Positions 17,374 to 21,141 of a stretch of 64,000 nt of DNA are shown piece after piece. Below the pieces are notes generated by a model. The model ran no database searches. It was not told the origin of the DNA and worked only from the letters and a program-made list of their open reading frames with translations. Origin of the DNA: Haloarcula pelagica (GTDB lineage Archaea > Halobacteriota > Halobacteria > Halobacteriales > Haloarculaceae); contig NZ_CP126161.1 in assembly GCF_030127105.1 (NCBI RefSeq), positions 744,001-808,000 on the forward strand, read 5' to 3'. Numbering within the stretch: the first letter of the stretch is position 1; each line of letters opens with the position of its first letter. A program made the translations under genes and the position numbers.

Positions 17374-18564
17374 TCAGTCGTCCTGTGCCGGCGGGGGCTG
17401 GGACCGACGCGGGTGGTCGCTGTCGAGTTCGGCACGGAGTCGAGAGAGGACGGCGTCGGCGTCTCCGTCGCCGGCGACGACCGTCTCGGCGGCGTCGACG
17501 ACCGGGCGGTTTCCGGGTGCAACGTCGCCGGCCGTCACGACGGCGTCGGCCCGGTCCGCCAGTTCGACCGCGCGCTCCCGGGTGCCGTCGTCGATGCCGG
17601 CGAACGCTGGGACGGTCACCGCCACACAGTCCAGTGCCGCCGCACGGTCGGTCGCGACATCGCCCGCGGGAGCGACACCGAGTGTCACCTCGAACCCGGC
17701 GCCCGCGAGGCGGGACAGCGCCGTCGCCGCCGACTGGCCGGTCCCGACGACGTGGACGCGTGCGTCGGCCGTCCCGGCGGTCCGTGCGGGCAGGGGCGTC
17801 ACCAGCGGCGCGTCGGTCACGGGGTGGTCCGTGACGAGGGCGTTGGCGTCGAACGCTTCGCCCAGCGTCTCGGCGCCCAGCACGTCTTCGGGCGGGCCGG
17901 CGGCCCGGATCTCACCGCCCGCGACCAACACGAGTTCGTCGCAGTACCGCGCCGCGAGGTTGAGGTCGTGGATGGCGGCGACGGCCGTCTTGCCGTCCGC
18001 GACGAGGTCGGCGACCAGTTCCAGCGTCCGGACGGCGTGGTTGATGTCCAGGCTGGCGGTCGGTTCGTCCAGCAGCAACACCGGCGTCGACTGGGCCAGC
18101 GCCCGCGCCAGGAGGACCCGCTGGCGTTCGCCGCCCGACAGCGAGGTCACGCGCCGGTCGGCGAACTCGGCGACCTCGGCCCGCTCCATCGCCTGCTCGA
18201 TGGCCGCCTGGTCGTCGGAGCCGGCGCGCTCGAACCGCCCCAGATGTGGCGTCCGTCCCATCTCGACGACCTGCTCGACGGTGAAGTCGAACGACAGCGA
18301 GGTCGACTGTGGGAGTCGGGCGATCAGCCGGCCGATCTCGCTGGCGCTGCGCTCGTGGACCTCGTGGTCGGCGACGGTGACGCGTCCCTCGTCGGGGACG
18401 AGCGTGCCGCCGACGGTTCGCAGCAGCGTCGTCTTCCCGGCCCCGTTGGGACCGACCAGCCCGACGAGTGAGCCCTCGGCGACGGCCAGGTCGATCCCCG
18501 AGAGGATCTCCTGCTCGGCGATCGACACCGACAGGTCCGTCGTCTCGACGATGGGACAGGTCAC
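17374..18564 (-). CDS. btuD: Corrinoid/heme-type ABC transporter ATP-binding protein
   Basis: 396 residues. Residues ~1-255 are an ABC ATPase: Walker [11 protein letters not shown] loop LPQSTSL, signature LSGGERQRV, Walker [14 protein letters not shown]-loop AIHDLN. The first part is typical of FecE/BtuD ATPases for iron complexes, heme or cobalamin. A further ~130 residues form a Rossmann-like extension ([20 protein letters not shown]), seen in haloarchaeal BtuD proteins and of unknown role. It overlaps btuC by 4 bp (ATGA). Corrinoid specificity is inferred from the haloarchaeal BtuF-like gene beside it. Confidence 0.88.
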
Positions 18565-19631
18565 AGCTCGTGGACCTCCCGTTTGCGCAGCAGATACAGG
18601 AAGAAGGGCGCGCCGAGTGCGGCCGTGACGATCCCGACGGGGATCTCCGCGCTGCCCGACCGGGCGAGGGTGTCCGTGGCGACGAGGAACGAGGCCCCCG
18701 CGAGCGCCGCCGTCGGCAGGAGCACGCGGTGGTCCGGTCCGACGACGAGCCGCATCGCGTGGGGGACGATGAGGCCGACGAAGCCGATGACGCCCGACAC
18801 GGCCACGCCGGCGGCCGTGACGACCGCCGACCCGGCCAAGAGAACCCGCTTGCTTCGCTCGACCTCGACGCCGAGGGCGTGGGCGTCCTCGCTGCCCAGG
18901 AGGAGGACGTTCAAGTCCCGTGTGTACACGAGCAGTGCGAGGAACGGAGCGACGACGAACGCCGTGCTGACCCCGACATCGGCCCAGGCGGTGTTCGCGA
19001 GGTGGCCCATCAGCCAGAACACGGCCCGGCGCATGCTCTCCCCGCTCTGGAGGAGCAGAAAGGAGACCACCGCACCCAGGAACGTCTGGACCGCGACGCC
19101 GGCCAGCAGCAGCGTCGCGACGGGAGTCTGGCCGTTGCGAGTCGCGATGAGGTAGACGCCGAACGCGGCGAGCAAGGCGCCGGCGAAGGCCGCGGCCCGT
19201 AGTCCAAGCCCCCAGGGGAGCGCGACGGGGAGCACGATGAACCCGACGGCGCCGACGGCCGCTCCGGAGGAGACGCCGATGATCGAGGGGTCGGCCATCG
19301 GGTTCCGGAACACGCCCTGCATCACCGTCCCGGCGGCCGACAGCGAGAAGCCGACGACCGCCCCCAGGACGATCCGCGGGAGGCGGACCTGCATGACGAT
19401 CTGGCGCTGGAGGTCTTCGACGGGAAACTGGAACAGCGGCGCCGTGGTGAGTTCGGGGCTCCCTCCGGCGACGGAGACGCTCGTGGGGACGGCGACGGCG
19501 TTCAGCAGGACCTTCCCCACGTCCGCCGGCGGGATCCAGACGGGGCCGATACCCGCACTCACCGTGACGACGACGAGCAACAGGCAGCCGAGCCCGCTGG
19601 ACCAGCCGAGTGCGCGCCCCGTCGTATGCAT
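18561..19631 (-). CDS. btuC: Corrinoid-type ABC transporter permease (FecCD family)
   Basis: 356 residues with about ten membrane segments. Family landmarks are visible: [41 protein letters not shown] near the cytoplasmic coupling region, and [17 protein letters not shown] close to the C terminus. Length is normal for BtuC/FecCD. The start at 19631 is supported by the shared TATA element 25-34 bp upstream. It is translated together with btuD (4-bp overlap) and is divergent from btuF. Confidence 0.9.
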
Positions 19632-19655
19632 GTTCGAAAGCTGAGTTGGAGTAGG

Positions 19656-19665
19656 TAAATATTTA
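19656..19665. promoter_or_regulatory. Symmetric bidirectional TATA box TAAATATTTA
   Basis: A perfect 10-bp palindrome centred almost midway between the two start codons (about 29.5 bp to the btuC ATG and 30.5 bp to the btuF ATG). It is the only AT-rich block in the 59-bp gap, so it probably serves both genes. Confidence 0.65.
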
Positions 19666-19690
19666 TTGTTCCTGTGTTCCCTCGTATACG

Positions 19691-21007
19691 ATGAGACGGT
19701 ACACGACGCTGTGTGTCGGACTGCTTCTCGTGGTGTCTGCGGTCGCCGCCGTGCCGACGGCGACTGCCGCGACCACGACGAGTTCCCACTGTAGCTTCCC
19801 GGTCACGATCACCGACGCGACCGGGACCGAAGTAACGATCGAGGAACCGCCCGAGCGCGTGACGACCACCAACCCCTCGGCCGCCCAGACGATGTGGGAG
19901 ATCGGCGGCCGCGAACAGGTCGTCGGACTCACCCAGTACGCCTCGTATCTCGACGGGGCCGACCAGCGGACGAACGTCTCCGCTGGGTTCGGCGTCAACG
20001 TCGAGAAAGTCGTCGGAACGAACCCGGATCTGGTTCTCGCGCCGAACGCCAGCGCCAGGGACGTGCGGCCGCTCCGCGACGCGGGGCTGAAAGTCTACCA
20101 CCTCCGGGCCGCGACGAACATCGACACCATCAGCGAGAAGACGAACACGATCGGTCGACTGACCGGTAACTGTCAGGGCGCTGAGCAGGCCAACGCCTGG
20201 ATGAACGCCAACGTCAACGCGATCAGGGACACGACCGACGGCATCGACAGCCGTCCGAGAGTCCTCTACCCGCTCGGGAGCGGGTTCGTCGCCGCCGACG
20301 ACACGTTCATCAACTCGCTGATCCAGTTGTCGGGCGGAGACAACGTCGCCGCACGGAGCCACACCGGCTACCCCCAGTTGAGCAGCGAGGTCATCCTGCA
20401 ACTCGATCCCGAAGTCCTCGTGGTGACGCGCAACCCCGGTATCGTCCAGCAACAACCCTACGCGAGCACGACCGCCGGCCAGCGGAACGCGACTGTCCAG
20501 GTTCAGACGAGACATCTCAACCAACCGGCGCCCCGCAGCGTCGTCCGTGCTGCACACAGCCTGACCAGCCAGTTCTACCCACAGGCCTACAGCGAGGACA
20601 GTTACGTCCCGCGGTCGGCGGTCGGCGGGTCCACTCCCACGGCGACTCCGATTCCCGAGCCCACACCGACAGCGACCTCGACCCCCACTCCCACTCAGTC
20701 CCCCGACGAATCGGGCAACGGTGGCGGCTCCGCGCCAGCGGACGACTCCGGTGACGTGAACGACGATGGGTCCGATTCATCGGTTGTGTCGGACGACGAA
20801 CAGGCGACGACGACTCCGACAGCGCAGTCGACTGTGACTCCGACCGACCGAGCAACTGCTACCCCGACATCACCGGCGACCGCGACCCCCGATCAGGGTA
20901 CGACTACCACAGCCGAACCGACGACGAGCGGTAACGGCCCCGGCTTCACCGCTGTCGCCGCCGTCCTCGCGCTGCTCGCGTGTGCGCTGCTCGCGCGACA
21001 TCGATAA
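19691..21007 (+). CDS. btuF: Surface-anchored corrinoid-binding protein of the BtuCDF transporter
   Basis: 438 residues. An N-terminal Sec signal ([19 protein letters not shown]) precedes a periplasmic-binding-protein fold of the helical-backbone type (residues ~35-300; [45 protein letters not shown]). A ~110-residue Thr/Pro/Asp linker rich in TPTATPT units follows, then a C-terminal [17 protein letters not shown] segment and Arg tail: a PGF-CTERM signal for archaeosortase processing and lipid anchoring. Haloarchaeal proteins with this layout are annotated as corrinoid-binding; the substrate itself cannot be proved here. Confidence 0.88.
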
Positions 21008-21141
21008 CGGTTCGACCGGCCGGTCGGCGCCGTCCGATGTCGGCCAACCGCCAGTTGCATTACCAACACGTATTTCGGGTGTTCGTCTCGATGTCCTCAC
21101 CGCATTACAGCGTTTGCGTCCAGTATAAACACACATAACAT

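Follow-up and report, generated by a model that had tools for sequence, protein, structure and literature searches.

How a single short stretch of DNA can serve two oppositely oriented genes of one transporter is the question raised by the btu locus of Haloarcula pelagica. The window analyzed here, a 64-kb (64,000-nucleotide) stretch of its genome, carries btuC and btuD on the minus strand and btuF on the plus strand, in divergent orientation with 59 bp between them. The gene btuC (18561–19631, minus strand) encodes a corrinoid ABC transporter permease (NF007081, 569.5 bits, cut-off 461; FecCD), its end is overlapped by the ATPase gene btuD (17374–18564, minus strand; NF007082, 524.3 bits, slightly under the cut-off of 537), and btuF (19691–21007, plus strand) encodes a PGF-CTERM anchored binding protein (TIGR04281, 394 bits, cut-off 325). 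With NF007081 and TIGR04281 both above cut-off, the names btuC and btuF given in the initial annotation hold; the closest named BtuC in the BtuC search was that of Haloarcula amylovorans (79%). The start codons of btuC and btuF lie at 19631 and 19691, respectively.

The initial annotation had singled out a perfect palindrome, TAAATATTTA (19656–19665), as one TATA element for both genes. The palindrome is its own reverse complement, lies midway between the genes (centre 19660.5; 29.5 and 30.5 bp to the start-codon A's of btuC and btuF, respectively) and, by reading of the sequence, is the sole AT-rich block of the gap, all as originally described. It is present in a single copy in the 64 kb and in 0 of 100 dinucleotide shuffles. 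The annotation was thus right on the position and probably right on one core for two genes, the surrounding putative cobalamin operator having been missed. Judged from sequence comparisons, the symmetric AT-rich spot, set within a longer haloarchaeal control sequence, appears to be both start site and switch for the two genes. We consider it probable that a bidirectional core promoter lies embedded in a cobalamin operator in this gap, an arrangement that would switch btuC and btuF together.

Conservation of a 32-bp element at btu loci

A contig scan with BtuC yielded 80 loci, of which the 41 archaeal ones were used. The counts below refer to 37 gaps (36 loci plus the window), all haloarchaeal by title except L037 and L040 (“uncultured archaeon”); excluded from them were L027 and L033, with no btuF relative in the locus, and L039, L041, and L044, whose titles are not haloarchaeal. 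Read toward btuC, the gaps contain an element of nearly fixed spacing, CAA-Y-AA-R-TA-Y-TT-R-N-CTA-M-N-S-CAA-N6-TT, in which 16 letters (CAA, AA, TA, TT, CTA, CAA, and the T at offset 29) are invariant in 37/37 gaps, a count that, like the others given here, comes from related species and is not made up of independent cases. Of the 37 gaps, 36 have T at offset 30 and 34 have a purine (A or G) at offset 6; the rest of the gap varies.

In the window, this element, CAATAAATATTTACCTACTCCAACTCAGCTTT (19637–19668, minus strand), has the form CAA-N6-TTK-N3-TA-N3-CAA-N6-TTK, that is, two CAA-N6-TTK boxes with a 20-bp period and TA between them, and we regard it as a candidate cobalamin operator. The palindrome corresponds to its offsets 3–12. 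Box 1 (CAA-TAAATA-TTT, offsets 0–11, 19657–19668, minus strand), which would hold the core promoter, ends in btu loci in YTT, not TTG. The central TA (19652–19653) is part of the invariant CTA found in all 37 btu gaps, and box 2 (CAA-CTCAGC-TTT, 19637–19648, minus strand) has G as its last letter in 28 of them. The distance to the flanking genes is likewise constrained: on the btuF side, the nearest long open reading frame (ORF) starts 19–28 nt away in 37/37 gaps, and on the btuC side, the nearest long-ORF start lies 11–18 nt past the second CAA-plus-one in 36/37 gaps and 24 nt past it in one.

A sequence-only model of the element, R1, matched 178 of the 195 genomes of the order and 151 of the 157 good ones, with some overlap with the training species, as well as 31 of the 32 genomes of the genus; no R1 match was obtained in 17 of the 195. 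In 59 R1 loci (L115–L173), a long ORF begins 20–25 nt to the btuF side every time. More than one R1 match was found in 28 of the 178 genomes, and some of the second matches adjoin second btuF or btuC genes. At the btuF paralog of L106 and L110, we observed a similar element with an intact box 2 (GCAA-N6-TTGC) and a different AT core. The same element also occurs between btuF and a divergent gene that replaces btuC, namely a cobT-like gene in L185 (by eye) and a CbiE-like gene in L184 (86.1 bits, under cut-off).

The AT-rich core and its symmetry

Haloarchaeal leaderless genes carry TATA boxes at the expected distance of ~24–31 bp from the transcription start. Two TATA-like TATTTA hexamers overlapping by 2 bp on opposite strands were recognized in the palindrome, one for btuC (19656–19661, minus strand, −30 to −25 of the start codon) and one for btuF (19660–19665, plus strand, −31 to −26). 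Assuming starts at or near the ATGs, each gene thus has a TATA-like sequence at the expected distance, with bases shared between the two. The degenerate form of the block, YAARTAYTTR, fits two inverted TAYTTR hexamers with a common TA, and the AA in the upstream element of each serves as the TT of its counterpart; each hexamer is centred ~27 bp before its start codon, and both mRNAs would therefore be leaderless or nearly so. The letters AA.TA.TT are kept in 37/37 btu gaps (TA and TT for the btuC hexamer, AA at offsets 4–5 for that of btuF). Given this geometry and conservation, no sequence but the central AT core is plausible as TATA for the two genes, and a core promoter common to btuC and btuF is a well-supported prediction. 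The proposal of one site for both directions is upheld to this extent; the view of the block as a mere TATA box is not supported, as the longer conserved element to which it belongs carries operator boxes.

The perfect symmetry stressed in the initial annotation is not what is conserved. The degenerate form YAARTAYTTR was found in 34 of the 37 gaps, and the palindrome is perfect in only 13. We further compared 103 distinct elements that had been preselected for the presence of at least 15 of the 17 invariant letters, so that only the unselected positions are informative. Perfect 10-bp symmetry was found in 43 and YAARTAYTTR in 98 of these 103 elements. The inner pair (offsets 6 and 9) is complementary in 50 elements, where independence predicts 50.0, and the outer pair (offsets 3 and 12) in 76, versus 61.3 expected. 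Within YAARTAYTTR, AA, TA, and TT are fixed, and the mirror positions vary mostly by transitions. As far as these comparisons reach, the perfect symmetry is a local variant, incidental to the conserved feature. Only 3 other divergent gaps of 50–70 bp were found in a scan, too few to judge how common one shared TATA is.

Loci in which the two genes are separated also bear on the core. The double core is broken in 5/5 tabulated split loci, in which either btuC (L027, L033, L191, and L192) or btuF (L197) stands by itself: 4 of the 5 have a letter other than A at offset 5, 2 have lost the TA (offsets 7–8), and the AA (offsets 4–5) is altered in 3 of the 4 loci with btuC alone. Box 2 is kept before btuF of L197, and at btuC of the same genome (L191), the CAA is kept and the TT altered. 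Locus L196, where no btuF relative was found beside btuC in an incomplete genome, retains AA and TA and has lost T11, which counts against the split-gene argument for the core promoter. L085 and L088 contain both genes, yet read AAGTTCTT, with the central TA missing. In L044, non-haloarchaeal by title, the core differs, and the gene on the opposite side is a distant btuF (28%).

Recurrence beside cobalamin-biosynthesis genes

Several additional R1 matches pointed to B12 genes: in G104, a weaker second match immediately precedes a CbiE gene (over cut-off), partial second matches in G105, G005, G098, and G135 fall by coordinates within 10 kb of CbiE rows, and a weaker match in L019 lies inside a stretch read by eye as cobT-cobD-cbiZ. 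We therefore took 30 stretches around CbiE matches, together with 10 control stretches. With a matrix derived from btu sites (btu offsets 9–33), without any biosynthesis gene in its training set, we obtained 54 hits scoring 14 bits or more in the 30 cbi stretches (597,030 b) versus 2 in the reversed control, some of the hits being the two strands of one site, and 1 hit versus 0 in the 10 control stretches (199,010 b). In relatives, the element thus recurs beside several B12 genes beyond chance.

Refined on the cbi sites, the element emerged as a 32-bp dyad with two CAA-N6-TTG boxes 20 bp apart and a central TA. At a threshold of 18 bits, the refined symmetric matrix found 96 sites versus 6 in the complement control in the cbi stretches, and 3 versus 1 in the control stretches; the count of 96 is inflated, because the matrix was refined on the same stretches, and the comparison of 54 with 2 is the fair test. 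In 34 of the 37 btu loci, the gap is the top-scoring place for the cbi-derived matrix, with which the window element receives 22.8 bits and the next best place in the 64 kb 8.5; as this matrix was seeded from btu offsets 9–33, only its left part is independent. At offsets 0–2, which lie outside the seed matrix, the cbi-cluster sites again show CAA, or else AAA, and the central T15 and A16 are each present in 202 of 239 cbi hits. The core letters, in contrast, are rare among the same hits (A4 in 7/239, A5 in 61/239, T7 in 28/239, and A8 in 49/239). Since AA and TA are no feature of the cbi sites, their retention at btu looks like a core-promoter constraint.

Flanking ORF families were named by NCBIfam using one member each, spurious-frame clusters being ignored. 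The neighbours found most often, each in 29 of the 30 stretches, were CobN (over cut-off) and a ChlI/D-like cobaltochelatase subunit (under cut-off). They were followed by a CbiX-like protein in 15 stretches (under the NCBIfam cut-offs; Pfam CbiX over cut-off for the L267 protein), CbiT (over cut-off) and CbiH (under cut-off) in 7 stretches each, CobT in 6 (over cut-off for the haloarchaeal-type model and just under it for TIGR00303), CbiA in 3, and CbiM in 1 (both over cut-off). The divergent gap between cobN and chlI/D measures only ~34 bp in most of L257–L286 and is occupied by the operator (e.g., L265:12568–12599). Elsewhere, operators are clustered, with two or three within 140 bp (L271:18986–19121, L262:11229–11294, and L266:899–981). 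All three control-stretch sites are located in L294. One of them (L294:2636–2667, 22.3 bits) lies 112 nt from a B12-dependent ribonucleotide reductase-like gene, with a second site (25.4 bits) ~0.8 kb off; the first 220 residues encoded by this gene best match B12-dependent ribonucleotide reductase models (under cut-off, fragment).

In the genome of H. pelagica itself, a 22-bp pattern (up to 3 mismatches) and R1 returned the btu site alone and no second operator, so that the regulon argument rests on relatives. A looser pattern, TTNNCTANNNCAA, occurs at 21 places in this genome, fewer than its reversed control (48). Of the 20 other places, 17 are inside ORFs of at least 190 aa and 3 are without a neighbour recognized by eye as a B12 gene, but this ORF screen is weak because even the btu gap falls within a spurious frame of 332 aa. 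A second model, R2, trained on 42 out of 59 cbi sites, gave no match in the genome; it missed the btu site too and hence has little power, so that this result says nothing. Across 42 sources, R2 produced one match, in L019, and in the window, searched unfiltered, it found the btu site alone (E 0.69). CbiC (PF02570) was not found in the H. pelagica genome (0/1), which gave one weak CbiE-type match; strong CbiE matches were obtained in 5/5 genus relatives searched. Corrin synthesis may thus have been lost in this species though its genus relatives keep it, and H. pelagica may depend on imported or salvaged corrinoid.

Regulatory model, rival readings, and a candidate regulator

In the proposed mechanism, the core would consist of two inverted TAYTTR hexamers, one per gene, that share the central TA and fill the spacer of the first CAA-N6-TTK box of the operator, the same operator that is also found beside haloarchaeal cobalamin-biosynthesis genes. 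A regulator bound to both boxes, 20 bp apart on one helix face, would cover the TBP/TFB sites of both genes at once, so that btuF and btuCD would be turned off together, presumably when corrinoid is plentiful.

Several other readings were weighed against this one. One symmetric TATA box that alone drives both genes, as first read, would explain the central position, the sole AT block, and the two TATTTA hexamers. The invariant CTA, CAA, and TT(G) letters, however, fall outside any TATA/BRE and are found again in cbi clusters, where the TATA core is missing, and the inner palindrome pair is complementary no more than by chance, which makes the plain TATA box quite unlikely. An activator site, at which a regulator upstream of the btuF BRE would recruit the machinery while overlapping the start region on the btuC side, agrees with the location of box 2 upstream of the core relative to btuF (−54 to −43) and with the activation of Halobacterium cob/cbi genes by TrmB and a second regulator inferred in the available text of PMC3794607. 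At btuC, in contrast, box 2 sits between the core and the start codon, and in 25 of 29 stretches the operator contains the start codon of the longest chlI/D ORF; a repressor suits both arrangements better, and activation appears rather unlikely to us.

TrmB itself controls cob/cbi genes in Halobacterium, according to the same portion of PMC3794607, and could act here through its motif TACT-N7/8-GAGTA, but this motif was found in 0/37 gaps with up to 1 mismatch and in 5/37 with 2. We rejected TrmB regulon membership on this basis and regard action of TrmB at this site as scarcely credible. A conserved RNA element (a riboswitch or a peptide-coding leader) in place of a DNA site is suggested by transition-like changes at each third base (Y-AA-R-TA-Y-TT-R), which look like codon wobble. 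The variable positions, however, are mirror-symmetric, for which reason the codon-wobble reading was set aside, and if the TATA boxes are used, both starts would be too near for a leader. No Rfam family reached the gathering score in 18500–21100, where two sub-threshold hits were obtained, neither in the gap, and the riboswitch was rejected; we consider an RNA element of any such kind very improbable. For Halobacterium cob/cbi genes, riboswitches were likewise judged unlikely in the text available from PMC3794607.

The operator built around a common core promoter remains our preferred reading, and a protein that might bind it was noted among the neighbours of the cbi sites. A helix-turn-helix protein with MarR_2 and DUF7839 domains lies to the left of the site in two stretches. 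DUF7839 was found in 188 of 190 genomes and, among the matches listed, lies no more than 6 kb from a cbi methyltransferase row in at least 24 of 47 genomes, where chance predicts ~0.8% per genome. DUF7839 proteins form two clades, and the copy of H. pelagica (L327:7360–8175) is 63–74% identical to the cbi-type and 46–48% to the other. The N-terminal domain is predicted to be a winged helix (mean pLDDT 79.1, pTM 0.49), and a fold search with the model, which tests mainly the N-terminal part and names no ligand, retrieved winged-helix domains that bind DNA, among them that of CggR (Z 12.9, 91 residues, 2.0 Å). These observations make the DUF7839 winged-helix protein a lead, as a candidate regulator of the element. 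A site of more than 24 bits is present in 8 of 30 DUF7839 loci (5 of the 8 in near-cbi genomes) and missing from the other 22, and a partial site of 12.9 bits lies 24 nt before the H. pelagica copy, a weak indication that DUF7839 may regulate its own gene. The name DUF7839 was not found in the literature searched.

In the available part of a 2013 study, Halobacterium cob/cbi genes depend on TrmB and on an inferred second, unidentified regulator (PMC3794607). The factor proposed here resembles that second regulator of Halobacterium salinarum in that it would act on cob/cbi genes beside TrmB, and where the accessible text of the study names neither site nor protein, a site and a candidate are proposed here. 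We tentatively put forward, as a possibility that we would not yet call likely, that an undescribed B12 regulon spans the order, with this element as its operator and with DUF7839, as the missing second cob/cbi regulator, reading it. The btu site would then be a single gate at which the regulator competes for one TBP site serving two divergent genes, and in H. pelagica the regulon would perhaps be reduced to that gate. The 32-bp operator, its target list, and the candidate protein make the control of haloarchaeal B12 synthesis and uptake testable in common laboratory strains of haloarchaea.

A CBL-box for a hypothetical B12 regulator in some archaea was reportedly described by Rodionov and colleagues in 2003. 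It resembles the present element in being a DNA site at archaeal B12 genes, and the two may be the same. In the literature searched, which included the available text of PMC8305020 and PMC8123684 and mostly left subscription journals outside, we found no haloarchaeal B12 operator. The symmetric bidirectional promoters of Warman et al. 2021 (Nat Microbiol; as cited in the accessible text of PMC12825309) are likewise reported to have a single pseudo-symmetric core from which transcription starts in either direction; in contrast to them, the core described here is conserved order-wide, is flanked by two genes of the same transporter, and is placed inside a putative operator. The btu gap would be a natural example of an archaeal promoter that is bidirectional, conserved, and equipped with a built-in regulator site. 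The bacterial cobalamin riboswitch, as presented in the available text of PMC8123684, also ties the control of genes for B12 uptake and synthesis to B12, whereas the element here is a DNA dyad, with no RNA family in the window region. A RAGATH-31 Rfam match inside btuC (19476–19527, minus strand) scored 26.9 bits versus a gathering score of 71.8 and is probably due to chance.
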